Source: Actinomycetes bacterium (GTDB taxonomy: Bacteria > Actinomycetota > Acidimicrobiia > Acidimicrobiales > Acidimicrobiaceae). Taken from it: a stretch of 39,188 nucleotides of DNA. Numbering within the stretch: position 1 is the stretch's first letter; the number at the start of each line of letters is the position of its first letter. The notes beneath the pieces are model-generated. The model was not told the DNA's origin, did not search any database, and saw nothing but the letters and a program-made list of their open reading frames with translations. Made by a program: the position numbers and the translations under genes. The DNA lies in NCBI GenBank assembly GCA_021784675.1, contig JAJYHR010000002.1, positions 1 through 39,188 of the forward strand, in the 5' to 3' direction. This document shows, in pieces, positions 1,398-35,527 of the stretch.

Positions 1398-1649
1398 GTG
1401 GCTTTGACCGGCTGGGCACGCCGCCAGGGTATCCGCTCCCAACCCGTATGCAACCGGTTCCATGCGGGGACGCTCCCGGCGCCGGCGGTCGGGATGAACC
1501 AGCGGGCGATCCTTGTCTCTCCCTGGGCGCTGGCGACCCTCGACCTCTACGCCCGGGTCTCTCCTCCCACGACCGACGGGCAGACCTCGGCCGCCAGGAG
1601 GCCCGGCTCTCGGAGCGGGTGGCACAAACCGGCCAGCCGGTGGTCCGAG
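1398..1649 (+). pseudogene. IS607-family serine recombinase TnpA, 5' half (interrupted)
   Basis: From a GTG at 1398 the frame reads LTGWARRQGIRS, then FHAGTLPAPA, AILV and LDLYARVS. This is the layout of IS607-type TnpA: a MerR-like helix-turn-helix followed by the serine recombinase core with the YARVS nucleophile motif. Right after YARVS the frame shifts. Removing one TC from the TCTC run near 1560 restores SSHDRRADLGRQEARL. The frame then continues as ERVAQTGQPVVRV and is cut at 1649-1651 by the left end of a RIT element. Its continuation resumes at 5041 beyond the element. The gene is doubly broken and no tnpB is recognisable beside it. Confidence 0.75.
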
Positions 1650-1739
1650 TCCTATGTGCGGTCGCGATTTATGTGGCCCGTCCAGCGTCGACCCTTGTCC
1701 GTCGTGCTTGCCGGTGTGAGCAACTGAACATAATTCGGC
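1649..1739 (+). repeat. Left terminal inverted repeat of RIT element 1
   Basis: Matches the reverse complement of 4921-5011 over 91 bp with two adjacent mismatches near 1667-1668. It contains TTATGTGGCC at 1669-1678, CCCTTG at 1692-1697 and ACATAA at 1728-1733. The span from TTATGT to ACATAA is 65 bp. It ends 4 bp from the stop of the third recombinase gene. Confidence 0.93.
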
Positions 1740-1743
1740 CCGA

Positions 1744-2736
1744 TCAGAGGTTGTCGAGGAAGACGAGCAGTCGGTCCGGCGGTCGGTAGCGTCCTGGCTT
1801 GGCGTTGAGTGGCCGGGTGCGGGCGAGAGCACGTTCCTTGATCGACAGGTCCGCGTGGATGTAAGTCCGCGTGGTGGTCTCGACCTGCTCATGTCCGAGC
1901 CATAGCGCAATGACTGTGGAATCGACTCCTGAGCGCAGCAACTCCATCGCGCAACTGTGGCGAAGGGCGTGGGGCGTTGGATGTTTGGCACGCAGGGACT
2001 GGCAGTTTTTCGCGGCGGTGGCGGCATGCTTGGCGACCAGGCAACTCACGGCACTGCGAGTGAGCCGGGAGCCTCGTGAGGTGGGGAACAGAGGATCCTC
2101 GGGCGCCCCTGCTCGCTCTTGCATCCAGGCGCGCAGGGTCCTGACGGTCTGCTTGTCGAGCGGCGTGGACCTCTCTTTGCGTCCCTTGCCTCGACAGCGG
2201 ACATGGGCTCCCGCGGCGAGCTCCACGTCGCCGTTGCGCAGGGCGGTCAGCTCCGAGACCCGCAGGCCGGTCTGCACAGCAACGTGCAACAGCGCCTGAT
2301 CTCTGCGCCCGCACCAGGTGTCGCTGTCGGGAGCGGCGACGAGGGCCTCGACTTCGCTCTCGTTGAGGTAGGTGACGTCTTTGCGCTCGCAGCGCTTGGC
2401 CGGGATGTCGAGCACGCGGGCGATGAGCGCTGCGTGCTCAGGATGGCGGAGAGACGCGTAGCGAAAGAACGAGCGGATGGCGGCGAGGCGGGCGTTGCGA
2501 GTACGAGCACTGTTGTGGCGCTCCTGCTCGAGGTGGTCGAGGAAACTCGCCACGAGCGTGGCGTCGAGGTCGGCCATGTCCAGCTGGCTGGGCTGCTTGC
2601 CGCTTCGGGCCAGAACGAAGCGCAGCAAAAGACGCCACGTGTCCCGGTAGGCGGCCACCGTGTTGGGGCTGGCCTGCCGCTGGCCGATGAGTCGCTCGGT
2701 GAAGTACGCCTCGAGCGTAGGGGCGAGGGCGCTCAT
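1744..2736 (-). CDS. RIT tyrosine recombinase, third gene (RitC-type)
   Basis: The 330-residue product is a complete tyrosine recombinase. The N-terminal SAM-like core-binding domain (about 1-110) includes ASPNTVAAYRDTWRLLL. The catalytic domain carries the first Arg in TGLRVSELTAL, the box II HxxR in HALRHSCAMELL, LGHEQVETTTRTYIH with the second His, and the nucleophile Tyr. The final residues (YRPPDRLLVFLDNL) run almost to the repeat. The ATG at 2736 overlaps the stop of the preceding recombinase by ATGA, so translation is likely coupled. In RIT elements the three recombinases act together on the element ends. Their separate roles are not assigned from sequence. Confidence 0.9.
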   Translation of the reverse strand: MSALAPTLEAYFTERLIGQRQASPNTVAAYRDTWRLLLRFVLARSGKQPSQLDMADLDATLVASFLDHLEQERHNSARTRNARLAAIRSFFRYASLRHPEHAALIARVLDIPAKRCERKDVTYLNESEVEALVAAPDSDTWCGRRDQALLHVAVQTGLRVSELTALRNGDVELAAGAHVRCRGKGRKERSTPLDKQTVRTLRAWMQERAGAPEDPLFPTSRGSRLTRSAVSCLVAKHAATAAKNCQSLRAKHPTPHALRHSCAMELLRSGVDSTVIALWLGHEQVETTTRTYIHADLSIKERALARTRPLNAKPGRYRPPDRLLVFLDNL

Positions 2737-3662
2737 CGCTGCCTCCTCAGAGTCTGCTCGCGTCGTTCGGCCGCCAGTGCCAGTAGTTCGGGGACGGTCG
2801 ACAAGTACCAGAACGTGTTGGCCGGGTTGGCATGGCCCATATAGGTCGACAGCAGCGGGAGGTGTGCTTCGACGTCTACTCCGGCTCGATACCAGCCGAG
2901 CAGAGTCGTGCAGGCAAAGGTGTGCCTCGCGTCATGCAAGCGCGGCCGGCACTGTCTTGAGCGCGGCCGTAGACCGGCGGCCCGCGTCAGGCCGGCAAAT
3001 ACCTGCTGAACGGTGACATACACCAAGCGATGGCCGGTGCTGGACACGAAGAAGCTCGGCGCCTTCGGCTCGGCACACAGCTCATCGCGCTCGAGCGCGT
3101 AGGCCCTGAGCGCGTCGATGGTGCTCAGGTGCAATGGCAGCTCTCGGTGCTTGTCGAACTTCGTATAGGTAATGGTGAGCACTCCCTCGTCCCAGTCGAC
3201 GTCTTCTCGGTCGAGGCGGATCAGCTCGCCAACCCGCGCCCCGCTCACCTTCAACAGTCCGATCAAGGTCTCGTAGGTGGCGGCCCGCAGCCTTGGGCTA
3301 AGCGCCCGTGCGGCCCCCATCAGCGCGGCAATGTCGTCGTCGGAGTACAGGTAGGGGGTGGCCCGACACTGTTGCCACCGCAGCAGGTCAGCCGAGGGAA
3401 CCTCGGTCGCCGGGTCGAAGGCTTGGAGGTGTTGGGCGAAGCCGCGCACCACCGAGAGTCGTTTGCTCAGGTAGGAGGGGTGGGCGCCGTCTCCAGGCTG
3501 GAGCGCCCAGGCCAGGGCCAGCTCCGCGGTCACCGTCGAAGCGCCAGCGGCTTCGGCGTAGGTGACGAAGTCGCCCAGCATCCCGGGGTAGTCGCGGAGC
3601 TTGAAGCCGAGACCTCGGCGGACCGTGAGGTAGTCCTCGACTGCTTCACGTAGGCCACTCAT
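2733..3662 (-). CDS. RIT tyrosine recombinase, second gene (RitB-type)
   Basis: The start is set at 3662, where ATG overlaps the stop of the first recombinase (ATGA). A longer open frame upstream only overlaps that gene and is ignored. The 309-residue product begins MSGLREAVEDYLTVRRGLGF. The N-terminal core-binding domain is followed by the catalytic domain with the first Arg in SGARVGELIRL, HDARHTFACTTLL as box II, a longer spacer (GWYRAGVDVEAHLPLLS), and YMGHANPANTFWYLS with His and Tyr. The extended linker between the HxxR box and the GH box is typical of RitB-like recombinases and is also present in the second element's copy. The gene is intact here. Confidence 0.9.
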   Translation of the reverse strand: MSGLREAVEDYLTVRRGLGFKLRDYPGMLGDFVTYAEAAGASTVTAELALAWALQPGDGAHPSYLSKRLSVVRGFAQHLQAFDPATEVPSADLLRWQQCRATPYLYSDDDIAALMGAARALSPRLRAATYETLIGLLKVSGARVGELIRLDREDVDWDEGVLTITYTKFDKHRELPLHLSTIDALRAYALERDELCAEPKAPSFFVSSTGHRLVYVTVQQVFAGLTRAAGLRPRSRQCRPRLHDARHTFACTTLLGWYRAGVDVEAHLPLLSTYMGHANPANTFWYLSTVPELLALAAERREQTLRRQR

Positions 3663-4867
3663 GCCGACACTCCCGGCCAGGGCTGAGCGAGCGCGCCCAG
3701 TGCAATTCGGTCGACCTTCGCGTACACGGCCGTCGTGGCGGCACGCGAGTGACGAAGGACCTGGCCGACTTCGGCCAAAGAAGCGCCGCCTTGCAGCATG
3801 GCAGTGGCAGCGCTGTGACGCAATCGGTGGGCGCCGGCTATCGGGACGCCGGCCCGTCTGCAGGCGTGCCTGACGATCTCGGTGACGTTCGACGCTGTCA
3901 TTGCGGTGATCGGGGCGTGGACCCGGAGAAAGACCGCACGGCACTCGACGCGTGGGCGGCCATCAGTCAGGTATGCGACCAGCGACTCGCCCACGTCAGC
4001 GGGCAGGGGGAGGCGATCCCGACGAGCACCCTTGCCGTGAACCACAAGCTCGCCGTGGTGCCAGTCGAGGTCCTCGAGCTCCAGCCGCGCCACCTCCCCG
4101 GCCCGAAGGCCCAGACGTGACAGGACGGTGAGGATCGCATGGTCCCGCCCGCCAATCACCGTGGTCGAGTCGCAGCTGGCGAGCAGCGCCGCCACTACCT
4201 CGGGTCTCAGAGCCCGGGGCAGGAAGCCCCCACCCATGGCCGAGGCAGCGGGCACCGCCCCCGCCAGATGAGGGGCGGTGTATCCCTCCAGGGACAAAAA
4301 GCGCAGCAGGGAGCGAAGCGCCGTGACCAGGACCTTGGCCGAGCCCACACGTCGTCGTCGGCACTCCCCGACGACGTAGGCCCTTACCTCCCCAGCGGTC
4401 AGGCGCGACAGATTCAGCCCCTCGGGACGGTCCAGATGAGACAAGAACGACCTGGCCTCGCCGACATAGCCACGGACGGTTGCCGTTGCCAGGCCTCGCT
4501 CGTGGACCAAGCAATGGCGGTACTCCTCGACGACTGCCTCCACCACGCTGTCCGGGGCTGGAGCCAACGTCGCTGCAACGCTCAGAGCGGGTAGGTAGCC
4601 GAGAAGCGTGACTACCCACCGAGTGGTGGGCACCTCTGCGTAACCCTCGGCACGCCTCGCCTTGAGGAATGCGTTCACCCGCTCCTCGGTCAGCTCACCG
4701 CTGGTCAAGCCCTCCGCCTCGAGCCAGCGGCTCAAATGGGCCAATAGCTGCACGTGGCGAACAGCGCGCTCAGGTGGGTAGCCCCGCCTGGTCAGCTCCT
4801 CAGCGAAGCCGACCGCGTGTACCGCCAGCGGTCCGTGTATCCGTACCCGATTGGGATTTCTTGTCAT
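3659..4867 (-). CDS. RIT tyrosine recombinase, first gene (RitA-type)
   Basis: The 402-residue product starts at ATG 4867, 5-12 nt after an AGGAGGTAA-like ribosome-binding site on the minus strand (around 4873-4880). It has a longer N-terminal region than the other two recombinases (about 1-200, including HLSRWLEAEGL and VHERGLATATVRGYV). The catalytic domain has LGLRAGEVARLELEDLD, HRLRHSAATAMLQGG and LRHSRAATTAVYAKVD. In the last motif the usual GH is RH. As the first gene of the trio it is the only one with its own ribosome-binding site, so the operon probably starts just upstream, near or in the right terminal repeat. Confidence 0.9.
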   Translation of the reverse strand: MTRNPNRVRIHGPLAVHAVGFAEELTRRGYPPERAVRHVQLLAHLSRWLEAEGLTSGELTEERVNAFLKARRAEGYAEVPTTRWVVTLLGYLPALSVAATLAPAPDSVVEAVVEEYRHCLVHERGLATATVRGYVGEARSFLSHLDRPEGLNLSRLTAGEVRAYVVGECRRRRVGSAKVLVTALRSLLRFLSLEGYTAPHLAGAVPAASAMGGGFLPRALRPEVVAALLASCDSTTVIGGRDHAILTVLSRLGLRAGEVARLELEDLDWHHGELVVHGKGARRDRLPLPADVGESLVAYLTDGRPRVECRAVFLRVHAPITAMTASNVTEIVRHACRRAGVPIAGAHRLRHSAATAMLQGGASLAEVGQVLRHSRAATTAVYAKVDRIALGALAQPWPGVSA

Positions 4868-4880
4868 GGTTTACCTCCTG

Positions 4881-4898
4881 CCCGGGTCGGTCCCGGGT
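4881..4898 (-). promoter_or_regulatory. CCCGGG inverted/direct repeat upstream of the RIT1 recombinase operon
   Basis: Two CCCGGG hexamers separated by TCGGTC form a small palindromic region between the right repeat and the ribosome-binding site of the first recombinase gene. It could be an operator or a leader hairpin. Only the symmetry is seen. Confidence 0.3.
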
Positions 4899-4920
4899 CT
4901 AACAAGTGTCCCTCACAAAG

Positions 4921-5011
4921 GCCGAATTATGTTCAGTTGCTCACACCGGCAAGCACGACGGACAAGGGTCGACGCTGGACGGGCCACATAATCCGCGACC
5001 GCACATAGGAC
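4921..5011 (-). repeat. Right terminal inverted repeat of RIT element 1
   Basis: Inverted copy of 1649-1739 with two mismatches. It contains TTATGT at 4927-4932 and ACATAA at 4986-4991, again a 65-bp span, with the reverse complement of CCCTTG between them. Its outer edge merges with the 32-bp palindrome at 5009-5040. Confidence 0.93.
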
Positions 5012-5040
5012 CCCTTATGGAGAATTCTCCATAAGGGGTC
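5009..5040. repeat. Perfect 32-bp palindrome at the right RIT1 junction
   Basis: Positions 5009-5024 are the exact reverse complement of 5025-5040, centred on GAATTC. It contains TTATGG (5015-5020) and CCATAA (5029-5034), which resemble the TTATGT/ACATAA boxes of the terminal repeats at shorter spacing (20 bp). The IS607 tnpA frame resumes directly after it with GTC-GAA-GCG, so the palindrome is not part of tnpA. It is either the true right end of the inserted DNA or a second small insertion. Confidence 0.85.
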
Positions 5041-5166
5041 GAAGCGGAGATCGGCCCGGGTATGAACGAATCGCAGGCCAAGCCCCGCCGGTTGCTTGCG
5101 GACCCCGAGGTCACCACCGCAGTCGCCGATCACGGCGACCGCCTGGTCGAGATGACCGCCAGCGGC
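5041..5166 (+). pseudogene. IS607-family serine recombinase TnpA, continuation of the 5' half at 1398-1649
   Basis: Taking GTC as the codon shared by both junctions, the left half ending QPVVRV continues here as EAEIGPGMNESQAKPRR, then LLADPEVTTAV and DHGDRLVEM. In IS607-type TnpA the corresponding segment is the E(V/I)GSG-N region followed by LL.DP.V...V.EH.DRL. The similarity fades after about 5166, and no C-terminal zinc or E-helix region can be recognised. A single contiguous tnpA was therefore split by RIT element 1 and has also lost its 3' end. The match is from recall of the family and not from an alignment. Confidence 0.7.
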
Positions 5167-5385
5167 GGGCCCTCATCGCTGCGAGCCGGCCCTGGTTGTC
5201 GCCGGAGGCGGGTTCGGGCAGCGAGCACGGCAACGGAACCAGCGAAGCCCGAGGGCTGCCGCATCTGCGGCGTAAGACCTGACCGGCCAAACCGGCCACG
5301 CCTGGTGAACCAGATGGACCCAAGACCGTTCGGGGCCACCCACAGGGGCGGGAGTCCGTTCCGCTGAGTATTTAGGAACGGTTGT
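5167..5385. other. Non-coding stretch between the IS607 remnant and larB
   Basis: No convincing gene is seen. Weak coding-like traces (for example ALVVAGGG around 5190-5215) may be decayed tnpA. Positions 5325-5365 carry a G/C-rich segment with a GGGGCGGGAGTCC stretch that could be the old right end of the IS607 element. This is not firm. Confidence 0.3.
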
Positions 5386-12052: not shown

Positions 12053-13825
12053 GTGGCGATCAACTACCAGTCCCTCTACCGGCGATTCCGGCCACAGCGC
12101 TTCGAGGACGTCCTGGGGCAGGCGCACGTTACCCGGGCGCTTCGCTCCGCCGTCGCCTCCGGCTCGGTGTCTCACGCCTACCTTTTCAGCGGGCCGAGGG
12201 GAACCGGCAAGACCTCGACGGCAAGGATCCTGGCGATGGCGCTCAACTGCGAGGCGCCGGTCGAGGGGGAGCCCTGCCTCGGCTGTGCCTCCTGCCTCTC
12301 GATAGCGGAGGGCCGCTCGATAGACGTCGAGGAGGTCGACGCCGCCTCGAACTCCGGAGTCGATTCGATCCGCTGGCTGATCCAGACCGCGGCTACCGCC
12401 GGAACCGGTCGGTGGAGGGTGTACATCGTCGACGAGGTGCACATGCTCAGCACCGCGGCGTCTAACGCCCTGCTCAAGACGCTCGAGGAGCCACCGCCGC
12501 ACGTCGTCTTCATCCTGGCTACCACCAACCCGCAGAAGGTCCTGCCCACCGTGCTCTCCCGGACCCAGCACTACGAGTTCCGGCTTCTCGACGCCGCCGC
12601 CCTCGGGGAGGTGGTGAGCAGGGTGGTCGCCGCCGATTGCATCGAGCTCTCCCCGGACAGCCGGGAGTGGCTGCTCCGGCGGGGGGCCGGTTCGGCCCGC
12701 GACACCCTCTCCCTGCTCGAGCAGGTGGTCGCCTCCGGCGGGGTGATCGATGACGGGGTTGCTGAGGTGGGCGGGCTTGTTGACAGCCTCCTCGATCTCG
12801 ATCGGCGGGCGGTTGCCGCCGCCCTTGACGGGATGCTGTCGAGGGGCCTCGATCCGGTGCTGGTCCTGACCGACATGCTGGCGGAACTGAGGCGGCGTTT
12901 CCTGGGCCAGCTTGGCGTGGGTCAGGCGGCCGCCGGAGCGGCGGCCTACCCGCTTGCGAGGATCACCGGTGCTATGGAGTCGCTCGGGCGCCTCGGAGTG
13001 CACGTAAAGGAGTCGCTCGATCCCGGGATCATGCTGGAGGCCACCACCGCCTTGTTTATGGCGGAGCAGGAGGCCACCGTCGGTCTCGACCAGCGCATCG
13101 CCCGGCTGGAGCAGCGGCTCGATGCCCTCGAGGGATCCCCGGGGCGGGCCGCCACCCGGAGCGGAAGCGAGTTCAGCCGCCTCCGGGGTGCGATCCACGA
13201 GGCAGGGAGGGCGCGCTCGACGCAGCAGGCTGCCCCACAGCCACAGCCACAGCCACAGCCACAGCCACAGCCACAGCCACAGCCACAGCCACAGCCACAG
13301 CCAGGAGGAGAGGCGGCGAGCGGCAACGGGCCGGATCGTGCTCCCCGGGAGCCGGTAGGAGAGGCGCCGGCACCGCCGGCCGGGGGAGGGGTGGATGACC
13401 TTGAGCTCTTGCGCACCCGGATCCAAGCCGAGTGGACCGACCGGTTCCTCCCCGCCATCAAGGCGGGCACCTTCAAGGCGGTGATCAGGGATACCCGTCT
13501 CGCCATCGCCGGCGAGGGTACGATCGCGATCCTGGTCGACCACGCCAGCAGGCTTGAGCGGCTGTCCGTCTACGAGCGCGAGATCGCCGCCCTCTTTTCC
13601 GACCTCTACGGGGACGGATTCAGCGTTGTGCTCCAGCTCGACTCCGGAAGCCCCGCCACCGATCGGCAGGGTGCACCCGCCGGCTTCGCCCCCGCGCCCG
13701 CTCTAGAGGAGGTTGAGGAGGTCGAGGAGGCGGCGAGCTCAGTTGCGGACCTGAACGCCGACGTCATCGCCGACAACGTCGCCAGGGTGTTCCCGGGAGC
13801 CAGGATGCGCGATGTACCCCGATAG
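12053..13825 (+). CDS. dnaX: DNA polymerase III subunit gamma/tau
   Basis: DnaX is the ATPase motor of the clamp loader. The 590-residue product has Walker A GPRGTGKT at 47-54 and a zinc-binding module with Cys66, 75, 78 and 81. Walker B lies in YIVDEVHML near 127, and sensor I in ATTNPQKVLPTVLSR near 160. Domain III extends to about residue 365. A low-complexity linker at about 395-417 consists of eleven Pro-Gln pairs encoded by pure CCACAG repeats. The last part (about 440-590) resembles the tau C-terminal region that contacts the polymerase. The GTG start follows a TAGGAT box by 6 nt. Its end overlaps recR by 14 nt. Confidence 0.95.
   Translation: MAINYQSLYRRFRPQRFEDVLGQAHVTRALRSAVASGSVSHAYLFSGPRGTGKTSTARILAMALNCEAPVEGEPCLGCASCLSIAEGRSIDVEEVDAASNSGVDSIRWLIQTAATAGTGRWRVYIVDEVHMLSTAASNALLKTLEEPPPHVVFILATTNPQKVLPTVLSRTQHYEFRLLDAAALGEVVSRVVAADCIELSPDSREWLLRRGAGSARDTLSLLEQVVASGGVIDDGVAEVGGLVDSLLDLDRRAVAAALDGMLSRGLDPVLVLTDMLAELRRRFLGQLGVGQAAAGAAAYPLARITGAMESLGRLGVHVKESLDPGIMLEATTALFMAEQEATVGLDQRIARLEQRLDALEGSPGRAATRSGSEFSRLRGAIHEAGRARSTQQAAPQPQPQPQPQPQPQPQPQPQPQPGGEAASGNGPDRAPREPVGEAPAPPAGGGVDDLELLRTRIQAEWTDRFLPAIKAGTFKAVIRDTRLAIAGEGTIAILVDHASRLERLSVYEREIAALFSDLYGDGFSVVLQLDSGSPATDRQGAPAGFAPAPALEEVEEVEEAASSVADLNADVIADNVARVFPGARMRDVPR
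13235..13300 (+). repeat. Hexanucleotide microsatellite (CCACAG) x 11 inside dnaX
   Basis: Eleven exact tandem copies of CCACAG encode eleven Pro-Gln pairs in the linker between the DnaX ATPase/collar part and its C-terminal domain. The unit is a multiple of three, so copy-number changes only lengthen or shorten the linker. Confidence 0.95.
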
Positions 13826-31594: not shown

Positions 31595-31975
31595 ATGGCC
31601 CCGACAACCTTCAACCTCATCCGGACGTTCACCCGCCACTCACGACGGGGCGTCCGCCACCCGGACGCTGTGCCCGAAGCGCAGCTCAACCTCCCCCGAA
31701 GGATCGACGGACCTGCGGCAGCGGCGCAGCTCGCTTGCGATCTGCTCCGGCATCACCGAGAAGACATCACGCTGGCGCTCTACCTGGACGACCGGCACCG
31801 GCTGGTCGGCACGGCCATCGTTGCTGTCGGCTGGGTTCAGGCAGCTCGCCTCCCGGCACGCCCGATCCTCGCAGGATCCCAGGCGTGCCGGGCGACCGGC
31901 TTCGTCCTCGTACGCTACCGCCGCTGGGGGGGCTCCCAGCGCCACGGAACCCGAGGTCGCGCCTTCCGTGCCATT
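31595..31975 (+). pseudogene. RadC-like (JAB/MPN fold) domain protein, cut by RIT element 2
   Basis: ATG 31595 has a GGAGGG site 7 nt upstream. The product has PAAAAQLACDLLRHHREDI, then LYLDDRHRLVGTAIVAVGWV and FVLVRYRRWG, resembling the RadC/JAB fold of actinobacterial accessory proteins. Around 31925-31965 the reading is odd. Dropping one G from the G7 run (31926-31932) gives WGAPSATEPEV. A second, opposite shift is then needed to return to RAFRAI, so two compensating indels seem to have happened. The frame then enters the left repeat of RIT element 2 at 31976. No continuation is found beyond 35491. Family assignment is moderate and function unknown. Confidence 0.5.
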
Positions 31976-32064
31976 ACGTGGACGGATGGGTTATGTGGCC
32001 GGCTGGCGTAGTTCCCTTGCTGGGCCTGTCGCGGGCACCGGTTCCGGCCACATAACGTGGGAGG
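31976..32064 (+). repeat. Left terminal inverted repeat of RIT element 2
   Basis: Matches the reverse complement of 35403-35491 with one mismatch in 89 bp. It contains TTATGTGGCCGG (31991-32002), CCCTTG (32014-32019) and CCGGCCACATAA (32044-32055). The two 12-mers are exact reverse complements, and TTATGT to ACATAA spans 65 bp. Confidence 0.94.
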
Positions 32065-32132
32065 CCGTCCGCTGACGCGTTGAGCGCGGCTAATAATCGC
32101 TCCTGTCCATCACGATCAGGGAGGCGATTCTC

Positions 32133-33404
32133 ATGCAGGTAACAGTGGTCCGTGACGCGTCGGTGCGGGTGATCGTCGCGTTGGAGGCGGCGGGGCGTTC
32201 GAAGGCGACGATCAAGCGCCATCAGGCGGAGTTCAACGCGTTCGCCGGGTTTCTCGAGGCTCGCGGCCGGGCAATCCCGACCGAGGCGGACTCCCTCGAT
32301 TTCATCGCTGAGCGGTCCGGGTCAAGGCTCGCGGGTCTGCGTGAACCGACCAGTTGCGGACGGGCTCAGCTCGCGCGCCGGCCGTTGCTTCTATTGATGG
32401 AAGCGTTGGCTGGAGGCGCCCCGTTGGTGGGGCAGGCGACAACGCCGCCGGTGGATCGCTGTCCGGCGCGGTTCCGGTCGGTCAGGGACGAGTACCTGGG
32501 GGCGTGCCGACGGCGGGGAAACGCGGAAGCGACCGTTGTGAGCAAGCAGCAGGCGGCGGACCAGTTCCTTGTCTACTTGGAGGAGGTCGGTCGGGAGACG
32601 ATCGCGCAGGTGCAGGCCCGGGACTTGGCTGGGTTCTGGGCTCGGCGTCAGCGGCGGGGGTACGCCCTGAAGACAACCGGTTTGTTGCGTTCGTCGTTGG
32701 CTGACTTCCTGCGCTACCTGCACGAGGGCGGGCAGATCCGGGAGGACCTGGCTGGGCGGCTCCCGCCGCAGCGCTATCCGCGACGCGGCCAGTCGGCCCC
32801 GCACCCGTGGACGGCGGGGGAAGTCCGCCTAGTGTTGGAGCAGATCGATCGGCAGTCCGCTATCGGCAAACGCGATTACGCGATGGTGTTGCTGACCGTC
32901 AGGCTTGGTGCAAGGGTCGGAGATCTCCGCCGCTTGGAGCTCGGTTGGTTCGACTGGCGCGCCAAGACGCTGGCGTTCACGCAGCACAAGACTGGGCTCC
33001 CGTTAAGACTGCCGCTGCCCGGTGACGTCGGCTGGGCCGTGATCGACTACATCCGCCACGGTCGGCCCGACGCGGTCTGCCGGCAGGTGTTCGTCAAGCA
33101 CCGCTATCCGTTCACCGCGTTCGGGTCGTCGGCGGCGGCGGGGTGCCGGCTTGGATACTACGCGCGGCGCGCCGGGATCGTGTTCTCAGCCGGGCGGTCG
33201 CACGGCCTGCACTCGCTGCGTGGTGTGCTGGCAGTCGCGATGCTTCAAAGCGACACGCCGCCGCCGGTTGTCACCGCGGTCCTGGGTCACGCAGCTGCCA
33301 CCACGACCGCCGCGCACTACCTCAGGCTCGACACCGAGCACCTGCGCCGCTGCGCGCTCGATATCGAAGATGTCCTTCACGCGGTGCAAGGGGCACGGTC
33401 GTGA
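32133..33404 (+). CDS. RIT tyrosine recombinase, first gene (RitA-type)
   Basis: The 423-residue product starts at ATG 32133 with a GGGAGG ribosome-binding site. The N-terminal half holds the core-binding domain (AGRSKATIKRHQAEFNAF, then CRRRGNAEATVVSKQQAADQ). The catalytic half has LGARVGDLRRLELGWFDW with the first Arg, HGLHSLRGVLAVAMLQ as box II, and LGHAAATTTAAHYLRLD with the final His and Tyr. In box II the usual HxLRH reads HSLRG, a change at the third position of the His-Arg-His motif. Its stop shares GTGA with the next gene. Divergent from the RIT1 counterpart. Confidence 0.87.
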   Translation: MQVTVVRDASVRVIVALEAAGRSKATIKRHQAEFNAFAGFLEARGRAIPTEADSLDFIAERSGSRLAGLREPTSCGRAQLARRPLLLLMEALAGGAPLVGQATTPPVDRCPARFRSVRDEYLGACRRRGNAEATVVSKQQAADQFLVYLEEVGRETIAQVQARDLAGFWARRQRRGYALKTTGLLRSSLADFLRYLHEGGQIREDLAGRLPPQRYPRRGQSAPHPWTAGEVRLVLEQIDRQSAIGKRDYAMVLLTVRLGARVGDLRRLELGWFDWRAKTLAFTQHKTGLPLRLPLPGDVGWAVIDYIRHGRPDAVCRQVFVKHRYPFTAFGSSAAAGCRLGYYARRAGIVFSAGRSHGLHSLRGVLAVAMLQSDTPPPVVTAVLGHAAATTTAAHYLRLDTEHLRRCALDIEDVLHAVQGARS

Positions 33405-34362
33405 GCGCGCTGACGTTGGGCGAGTTGGTAGACACGTTGGTCGCGGCCCGCCGCGCCGGCGGGTTTCGCTACGACGCTCAGGCACGGGTTCTCGGGCAGT
33501 TCGCCGAGCACTGCCGCCGGGAAGGGTATGCGGACGGGTCGATCATCCAAGAGGCGGTCGAGGGGTTCCTCTACGACCGTCACCTCAAGGCATCCACGAT
33601 CCGTCGCGAGGAGATCATCGTGCGCGAGTTGGCGCAGCACGCCCGCCAGTTCGGCTGGCCGGCATGGGCGCCGCCGACGCTGACACGCCTCAAGACCCGC
33701 CACCGCATGTGTTCAGCGACGAGGAGATCCGCCGCTTCTTCCACGCGATCGATGCCCAGCCGCTGTCGGAGATGTCCAACCGGGCGCTGGTCGACCCGGT
33801 GCTGTTCCGGGTCCTCTACGGCACCGGGCTGCGCATCTCCGAAGCGCTCAACCTGCAACTGCACGACGTCGACCAGGAGCAAGCCACGCTCGAGGTGCGC
33901 GACACCAAGAACCGCGAGAACCGCATCGTGCCGATCACCAGGCGCCTCGCCGCCACGCTGGAGGCCTATATCGCGTCCGGGCACTCCGACCCGGAGCCCT
34001 CCCAGCATCTGTTTCACACTGGCGACCCGTCCAAACCGGCCGACAAGTCCACGATCTACAACCGGTTTCGCCGCTACCTTGCCGACGCTGGCATTCCTCA
34101 TTTCGCGCCGGGCGGACCGCACATCCATTCGCTGCGACACGGGTTTGCCGTGGCGAACCTACGCCGCTGGGCGGCTAACGGCAGCGACCTGGCGGTGATG
34201 CTGCCCTACCTATCCGCATACATGGGCCACGCCGACCTGCGGGGAACCCAGTACTACCTCCGGCTGACCGCGGACGCGTACCCGGAGGTTGCCGCGAGGG
34301 TCGAAGCGAGGTTCGGGTATGTCATCCCGGACCCGGCCGCGCGGCAAGGAGGCGAGCAGTGA
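33401..34362 (+). pseudogene. RIT tyrosine recombinase, second gene (RitB-type), frameshifted
   Basis: From GTG 33401 the frame reads VSALTLGELVDTLVAARRAG to PAWAPPTLTRLKTRHR, the core-binding domain. The catalytic domain (HVFSDEEIRRFFHAID, GTGLRISEALNLQL, HSLRHGFAVANLRR, YMGHADLRGTQYYLRL) lies in the neighbouring frame and ends at 34362. Adding one C near 33705 joins them as RHRHVFSDEEI, matching YLYSDDDI at this point of the RIT1 protein. No good slippery heptamer is visible, so a deletion is more likely than programmed frameshifting. All catalytic residues are present in the second frame. Confidence 0.85.
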
Positions 34363-35402
34363 GCCGCGTCATCCCTGCCGGCGGGGATCTGGCCGGCCGC
34401 TGGCTGTCGAAGTTCCTCACCGACCACCTCGCCGGCGAGCGGGACCTGTCTCCCCAGACGATCTCCTCCTACCGAGACGCAATCAAAGTGCTGCTCACCT
34501 GGTTTCGGGACGTGCAGGGAACCCCGCCTGAGAAGTTGCGCCTCTCAGACCTCGACCGGGAGCGCGTCCTCGCGTTCTTGGACTGGCTCCAAGCCGAACG
34601 CGGCAACTCGCCTGCGACCCGCAACCAGCGCCTCGCTGTGATCAAGTCGTTCGCCCGCTACGCCGCGGTCGAGCGGCCAGAGTTCCTCGACCAAGCCACC
34701 CAGATCATCGCCGTCAAGCAGAAGAAGACCCCGGTCACCGACATCGGTTACCTCACCGGCGACGAGGTCAAAACGCTGCTGGGCGCACCAAACCCGACCA
34801 CCCGGCCCGGACTGCGCGACATCGTCCTTCTCTCCACGCTCTACGACACCGCCGCTCGCGTCCAAGAGATCTACGACCTGAACAGCGCCGACGTCCGCGT
34901 AGCCAGACCGATGCTCGTCACGCTGCACGGCAAAGGCTCCAAAACCAGGCGCGTCCCGCTGATGGACCCCACAGCCAGGCTCCTTGAGAACTACCTCGAC
35001 CGGCGCACCTGCCATCCTGGCGTTGGCGCAGACGCTGACCCGCTATTTTACGGGCCTCACCAGACCCGATTGACCCGCTGGGGCGTCACCAAGATTCTCG
35101 CCAGGCACGTCCAGGCCGTGCGCCGCCGCGACCCTGGCTATGCGGCCGGCGTGAACGTCACCCCGCATGTGATCAGAAGAACCCGGGCGATGCACCTGCT
35201 CAATGCCGGAGTGAACGTGATCTACATCCGCGATCTGCTCGGCCATGCTGACGTCTCAACCACCGAGATCTACGCCCGCGCCGATCCGGAAGCGAAGCGC
35301 AAAGCCATCGAGAGCGCCTACGAGTCACTCACCCCCGAGCACCTGCCCAGCTGGACAGCCGACCGAGATCTCCTCGAATGGCTCGACCAGATCTGCCGAT
35401 AA
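34359..35402 (+). CDS. RIT tyrosine recombinase, third gene (RitC-type)
   Basis: The 347-residue product begins at GTG 34359, sharing GTGA with the end of the second gene. The core-binding domain contains ERDLSPQTISSYRDAIKVLL and RGNSPATRNQRLAVIKSF. The catalytic domain has DTAARVQEIYDLNSADV, HVIRRTRAMHLLNAG and LLGHADVSTTEIYARAD. The HxxR box is intact although the following His is Arg. TAA at 35400-35402 is directly followed by the right repeat at 35403. The gene appears complete. Confidence 0.9.
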   Translation: MSRVIPAGGDLAGRWLSKFLTDHLAGERDLSPQTISSYRDAIKVLLTWFRDVQGTPPEKLRLSDLDRERVLAFLDWLQAERGNSPATRNQRLAVIKSFARYAAVERPEFLDQATQIIAVKQKKTPVTDIGYLTGDEVKTLLGAPNPTTRPGLRDIVLLSTLYDTAARVQEIYDLNSADVRVARPMLVTLHGKGSKTRRVPLMDPTARLLENYLDRRTCHPGVGADADPLFYGPHQTRLTRWGVTKILARHVQAVRRRDPGYAAGVNVTPHVIRRTRAMHLLNAGVNVIYIRDLLGHADVSTTEIYARADPEAKRKAIESAYESLTPEHLPSWTADRDLLEWLDQICR

Positions 35403-35491
35403 CCTCCCACGTTATGTGGCCGGAACCGGTGCCCGCGACAGGCCCAGCAAGGGAAATACGCCAGCCGGCCACATAACCCATCCGTCCACGT
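35403..35491 (-). repeat. Right terminal inverted repeat of RIT element 2
   Basis: Inverted copy of 31976-32064 with one mismatch. TTATGT at 35412-35417 and ACATAA at 35471-35476 again span 65 bp. It begins at the base after the stop codon of the third recombinase gene. Confidence 0.94.
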
Positions 35492-35527
35492 GATGTCGAT
35501 TATCGTGCATGTCGGTAGATTGACGCG

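Follow-up and report, generated by a model that had tools for sequence, protein, structure and literature searches.

A conserved end-site code in RIT elements and a proposed circular form with two opposed dif-like cores

Recombinase in trio (RIT) elements, reportedly described by Van Houdt in 2009 and 2012 and by Ricker in 2013, are widespread, and how one element is moved by three tyrosine recombinases has been an open question. They carry overlapping ritA, ritB and ritC genes, measure about 3.5 kb, end in terminal inverted repeats and have been found inserted in radC and in tnpA of IS66 (PMC3414803, PMC2864759). The inverted repeats have been reported as 28-29 or 34 bp long (PMC3414803, PMC2864759); the 28-29 bp repeat of Van Houdt 2012 overlaps a palindrome that was left unexplained, and no convincing recombinase sites were found (PMC3414803). 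RitA has been reported to have two core-binding domains and RitC an extra C-terminal helix (PMC8138268). Here, two RIT elements, RIT1 on the minus strand and RIT2 on the plus strand, were analysed in a 39,188-nucleotide stretch of DNA from an Acidimicrobiaceae bacterium (contig JAJYHR010000002.1; hereafter the window), together with a sample of 105 RIT loci found in bacterial genomes, plasmids and viral contigs through similarity of their proteins. RIT ends carry Xer-type arms in the outward order inner arm I, 45 bp, outer arm O, 7 bp, arm D and a 6-bp spacer, followed by a palindrome P or by host DNA. It is likely that these arms are helically phased, that strands are exchanged at the 6-bp spacer by D, and that the element passes through a circle, D_C-6bp-P-6bp-D_A, which inserts into a target B-6 bp-B' in either orientation.

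RITs themselves are known, and their attachment-site layout is apparently unreported, although Ricker 2013 may already describe parts of it. In PMC3414803 and PMC2864759 there is no description of the I-O-D-P code, of where the crossover lies or of what P does. The Escherichia coli dif site is GGTGCGCATAA-TGTATA-TTATGTTAAAT (PMC3025954). Like dif, the RIT core D-6bp-P has CATAA-N6-TTATG arms, and both D-6-P and D-6-host junctions consist of two inverted arms of about 10-11 bp around a 6-bp exchange region; RitC is a simple Xer-like tyrosine recombinase. RITs differ from Xer/dif in having three recombinases of their own, the extra arms I and O, two inverted cores and gene motifs as targets. Strand-biased circularizing integrative elements (SEs) have an arm-6bp-arm junction and follow the same rule for the side of each spacer (PMC10214605). 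However, the SE gene set includes tfp and srap, only ritABC lies between the ends of the window elements, and SEs have one junction, with no P palindrome that has two alternative cores described for them. GInts also use several tyrosine recombinases and a 6-nt staggered exchange with heteroduplex spacers (PMC5385486). In contrast to RITs, they have a ginABCD operon and large cargo, and neither long inverted repeats nor a palindrome has been reported for them; the window elements have three genes and no fourth conserved one.

TTATGT occurs six times and ACATAA four times in the window, and the sole pairs within 200 bp of each other are those of the four RIT ends, each exactly 65 bp across (1669-1733, 4927-4991, 31991-32055 and 35412-35476); shuffled windows gave no such pair within 200 bp. 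The 65-bp plan put forward for these ends by an earlier reading of the window alone (the original prediction) is real. Its other observations hold in the window as well: TTATGTGGCC is common to the ends, the RIT2 arms are 12-bp perfect inverted copies, and CCCTTG starts 23 bp after TTATGT at all four ends. It had taken the 65-bp palindrome for the whole recombination site, and overlooked the third arm D, 7 bp beyond O, the 6-bp spacer and P. The elements, delimited by their terminal inverted repeats and the end code, and the parts of their ends are as follows.

1652-5008, minus strand: RIT1 element, D arm to D arm
1646-1651, minus strand: RIT1 ritC-side 6-bp spacer, CGAGTC on the plus strand and GACTCG outward; D-B' junction
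1652-1661, minus strand: RIT1 ritC-side D arm, CCGCACATAG outward
1669-1678, minus strand: RIT1 ritC-side outer arm O, GGCCACATAA outward
1724-1733, minus strand: RIT1 ritC-side inner arm I, TTATGTTCAG outward; I-to-O span 65
4927-4936, plus strand: RIT1 ritA-side inner arm I
4982-4991, plus strand: RIT1 ritA-side outer arm O
4999-5008, plus strand: RIT1 ritA-side D arm, CCGCACATAG
5009-5014, plus strand: RIT1 inner 6-bp spacer, GACCCC; unused core D-6-P
5015-5034, no strand: RIT1 palindrome P, TTATGGAGAATTCTCCATAA, on the ritA side
5035-5040, plus strand: RIT1 outer 6-bp spacer, GGGGTC; B-P junction
31974-35493, plus strand: RIT2 element, D arm to D arm
31974-31983, minus strand: RIT2 ritA-side D arm, GTCCACGTAA outward
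31991-32000, minus strand: RIT2 ritA-side outer arm O
32046-32055, minus strand: RIT2 ritA-side inner arm I
35412-35421, plus strand: RIT2 ritC-side inner arm I
35467-35476, plus strand: RIT2 ritC-side outer arm O
35484-35493, plus strand: RIT2 ritC-side D arm, GTCCACGTGA

Nothing else in the window resembles the P of RIT1. Both ends of RIT2 carry I, O and D, and neither has a P past the spacer.

The same order of arms recurs throughout the sample. In a motif-free scan of the DNA after ritC, in which the O-D gap was allowed to be 3-12 bp, the top-scoring structure had two arms in inverted orientation and, beyond them, a second copy of the outer arm in direct repeat, and the gap was exactly 7 bp in 77 of 77 high-scoring ritC-side ends. 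Read outward, the end code is I (TTATGnnnAG), about 45 bp, O (CTnnnCATAA), 7 bp, D (CTnnnCATAA) and a 6-bp spacer, with an arm consensus of CTTTGCATAA; beyond the spacer lies either host DNA or the 20-bp P (TTATGnnnAG-CTnnnCATAA) and then a second 6-bp spacer. The I-O span was counted, anchored on TTAT/ATAA, at 101 non-redundant ends from many phyla, representing 24 RitC families at 60% identity. It was 64 bp at 14 ends, 65 at 58, 66 at 19, 67 at 3 and 68 at 1 (95 of 101 in total), and 75-78 bp at the remaining six, with none at 69-74. The 75-78 bp group adds about one helical turn, in support of helical phasing of I and O. A conserved recombinase site of fixed spacing, as originally predicted, is therefore borne out by the spans and phasing of the 24 families. 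The prediction had called for a comparison of many RIT ends, in which the spacing recurs and the CCCTTG offset does not: within the interiors of the 101 ends, CCCTTG occurs three times, both strands taken together, compared with 1.2 expected by shuffling, and none of the ends recovered from the three closest relatives of RIT2 contains it. It is thus a coincidence of the window rather than a fixed element. Since all RITs are related, the 65-bp plan could simply reflect shared ancestry of the terminal repeats without any function. This is very unlikely, because the I-O interior of about 45 bp is unalignable between families and yet its span is kept at 64-68 bp or about one helical turn more, with nothing between. 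Fold energies of this interior have z below -2 at 31% of ritC-side and 7% of ritA-side ends, and the ritC-side hairpins are probably transcription terminators. A first scan of viral contigs with the RitC of RIT2 gave no match.

The arms follow the element that carries them. O and D are 0.76 identical within one end and 0.52 between elements, and the arms of P, over variable positions, are 0.71 identical to the D arm of their own element and 0.50 to those of others. The likeness of the arms to dif arms would suit a mechanism in which host XerCD acts at the D-6-P core, as in IMEX-like elements, with the trio in a secondary role. Such a mechanism has little probability, because the O and D arms co-vary with the element, the targets are gene motifs rather than dif, and every element has its own trio. 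P stands at just one end in about three quarters of the 61 two-ended loci, on the ritA side in 24 and on the ritC side in 22, a near-even split as expected for two equivalent cores.

Empty sites in E. coli locate the junctions. The E. coli RIT (L042) occupies a methylase gene that is empty in thousands of plasmids. The empty site (L128) reads GTGCTG-GACCCG-TTTGCAGG, and the filled site reads GTGCTG-GACCCG-P-CAGGTC-D...D-GACCCG-TTTGCAGG, with no target DNA lost. The chromosomal gene yhdJ, whose target is intact in 5337 of 5426 genomes, holds the same element in L124, L125 and L127; L125 has it one way round and L124 and L127 have it the opposite way, and P lies to the same side of yhdJ in all three. 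In strain 550 (L124), the spacer GACCTG separates yhdJ from P. In the yhdJ context the sole match to GACCTG is the B-P junction of strain 550 itself, and about 5324 genomes have GACCCG across the intact gene. GACCTG is not native to yhdJ, so the element brought the spacer next to P, and the one next to D belongs to the target. Read directly from the sequences, the end code, the junctions and the empty sites place the crossover within the 6-bp spacer beyond D, or at the edge of that spacer, and show that P travels with the element. The E. coli RIT also has a fourth gene between ritC and the end (L042:6206-6781; WP_069903716.1, hypothetical), a small cargo.

These junctions bear on two other explanations. 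The original prediction had placed the crossover within the 65-bp site, with CCCTTG as the candidate, and the offset of 23 in all four window ends fits it. There is next to no chance that this is correct, because CCCTTG is at chance level elsewhere and the comparison of empty with filled sites in E. coli puts the real junctions beyond D, within the 6-bp spacer; junctions of mobilised copies mapping elsewhere are half of what the prediction had itself named as evidence against it. P, in turn, might be a pre-existing feature of the target, such as a terminator or REP-like palindrome, beside which RITs insert: it lies outside the terminal inverted repeats, at one end only, and RIT1 adjoins a perfect 32-bp palindrome. 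This is extremely improbable, because empty sites in thousands of genomes lack P, one strain has the same P at different targets, P faces the same way with respect to the element at the ritA and ritC ends alike, and its arms are closer to the D arm of their own element.

A travelling P can be explained by a circle model, in which the 65-bp I/O pair would probably have an accessory role, folding the end or keeping it in helical register and bringing a second arm pair to the core. Strand exchange would occur within the 6-bp spacer adjoining D, or at the edge of that spacer, in the arm-6-arm layout of dif, and the excised circle would carry D_C - 6 bp - P - 6 bp - D_A, namely two opposed alternative cores with a common P. 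For the E. coli element, the predicted circle junction is CACCACATAA-6bp-P-6bp-TTATGTGGTG. Upon integration, either core would recombine with the target, which would put the B-P junction together with the unused core on the B side and the D-B' junction at the opposite end; the 6 bp adjoining P would come from the circle and those adjoining D from the target. Because the two cores are inverted and share P, the element would insert either way round with the side of P fixed relative to the target. With P between the joined ends of the circle, the spacers expected in a daughter copy would follow from those of the parent after excision. The predicted spacer pair was found on the correct sides in two cases with distinguishable spacers, from L042 to L124 (strain 550) and from L098 to L100 (one Lachnospiraceae genome). 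A side-swapped control gave no match with distinguishable spacers, all of its matches coming from copies with identical spacers. We infer that RitA, RitB and RitC bind the arms; as a speculation, RitA is a candidate bridge between O and D.

The same spacer rule, with the circle spacer by P and the target spacer by D, is reported for SEs (PMC10214605). It could also arise from a strand-biased copy-out/copy-in or a single-strand hairpin route, as proposed for SEs and resembling integron attC sites, with 6-P-6 as the hairpin in place of double-strand excision and integration. The 6-P-6 block, which in many cases forms a perfect 32-bp palindrome, and the coexistence of near-identical copies in one strain are consistent with such a route. 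However, P has no loop, and ordinary exchange followed by repair of heteroduplex spacers gives the same spacers; we regard this route as rather unlikely.

Several points weigh against the circle model. The predicted circle junction was not found as such in assembled sequence: the E. coli search gave no full match to it, and three viral contigs that fit the circle-junction pattern are read as integrated copies. We thus infer the circle rather than observe it. The two spacer lineages were recognised post hoc, and binding and cleavage at the arms and the spacer are predictions from sequence. The D arm is off consensus in the Cupriavidus/IS66-type group (L041, L114), and some loci with a divergent D arm (e.g. 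pHG1, L041) retain the 64-66 bp span and P. About 12 of the 61 two-ended loci lack P and three score P at both ends. The ritC-side P of L080 looks like a chance palindrome in a host gene, and the other loci without P or with two can be read as exchange products or decay.

The loci L073, L087, L101 and L102, and L057, L085 and L090, include copies that lack P and join D to host DNA at both ends, and others with P at both ends. The two D-host junctions of L073, L101 and L102 derive from different copies of one target gene family. Such P-less and double-P copies look like reciprocal products of exchange between copies.

On balance, the circle model is favoured, by a modest degree, in its full form: the circle would be a composite site D_C-6-P-6-D_A, in which opposed dif-like cores share one travelling palindromic half-site, with two phased accessory arms at each end and three dedicated recombinases.

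Deletion of the element together with P restores open conserved genes in many cases. Pfam matches among 27 restored peptides were to reverse transcriptase (6), IS66 transposase (4), IstB (4), integrase (3), N6/N4 DNA methylase (2) and ParA-type ATPase (2), and to C5 methylase, AbiEii, DUF3489, TetR and integrase core. The insertion points lie within conserved motifs, such as PQGG-VISPLLAN, P-loops, HxLRH and DPFAGSG; insertion of RITs into radC and tnpA of IS66 was already known (PMC2864759). The target of RIT1 is a gene for an IS607-type transposase (serine recombinase), whose halves at 1500-1651 and 5035-5310 are in frame without RIT1 and P; the restored peptide matches NF033518 across the junction with an E value of 3.7e-11, a weak match under the full-length cut-off of the family. 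A decayed tyrosine recombinase was considered as the target of RIT2 and set aside, the flank motif MHDNRHH (frame 1, minus strand) being too weak to claim. Elsewhere, a RIT2-type element of Mycobacterium europaeum (L046) lies inside a tyrosine recombinase gene that resembles the ritB of another RIT, which suggests that RITs insert into RITs. RITs near protease and capsid genes of gut prophage-like contigs (L132-L134) have targets that themselves resemble RIT arms.

The window elements have the gene content of RITs, that is, three adjacent overlapping tyrosine recombinase genes in the same direction, with overlaps of 4 bp in RIT1 and likewise in RIT2.

1744-2736, minus strand: RIT1 ritC, 330 aa Xer-like tyrosine recombinase (Phage_integrase 3.6e-35)
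2733-3662, minus strand: RIT1 ritB, 309 aa (Phage_integrase 2.5e-19)
3659-4867, minus strand: RIT1 ritA, 402 aa (Phage_integrase 4.8e-25)
32133-33404, plus strand: RIT2 ritA, 423 aa (Phage_integrase)
33401-34362, plus strand: RIT2 ritB, with a frameshift near 33700
34359-35402, plus strand: RIT2 ritC, 347 aa (Phage_integrase)

The Pfam family Phage_integrase was matched in all six recombinases, including that of the frameshifted RIT2 ritB. From D arm to D arm, RIT1 measures 3357 bp and RIT2 3520 bp, in agreement with the known RIT length, and their terminal inverted repeats (1649-1740/4920-5011 and 31972-32075/35392-35495) are 98% and 93% complementary, respectively. The closest solved structure to the RitC of RIT1 is XerD (6.4e-26), and the RitA of RIT1 has a SAM-like domain at residues 113-195, preceded by an extra N-terminal region of about 110 aa. 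The two elements had been described as unrelated-looking; with RitC proteins that share 37-38% identity (E 2.8e-52), they are in fact distantly related. RIT1-like and RIT2-like sequences are direct neighbours in two further actinobacterial contigs (L044, L045), and the two types likewise co-occur in the window. The ritB of RIT2 is probably inactive, and in L044, the closest relative, ritB is unbroken as one open frame. Because of the ritB frameshift and the missing P, this copy of RIT2 looks inactive or dead. Apart from the RITs, a long open frame in the window contains a short CCACAG tandem repeat (13223-13315).

The end code supplies exact candidate sites for binding and cleavage tests and an automatic rule for finding RIT boundaries, together with a prediction of the circular form and spacer fingerprints by which parent copies can be traced. 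The motifs that RITs disrupt are the most conserved ones of their target genes, most of which belong to other mobile elements (reverse transcriptases, IstB, IS66, ParA and integrases). If the circle model is true, RITs would integrate without regard to orientation, their spacers would record the earlier hosts of the element, and their ends would represent a new attachment-site layout for tyrosine-recombinase elements.

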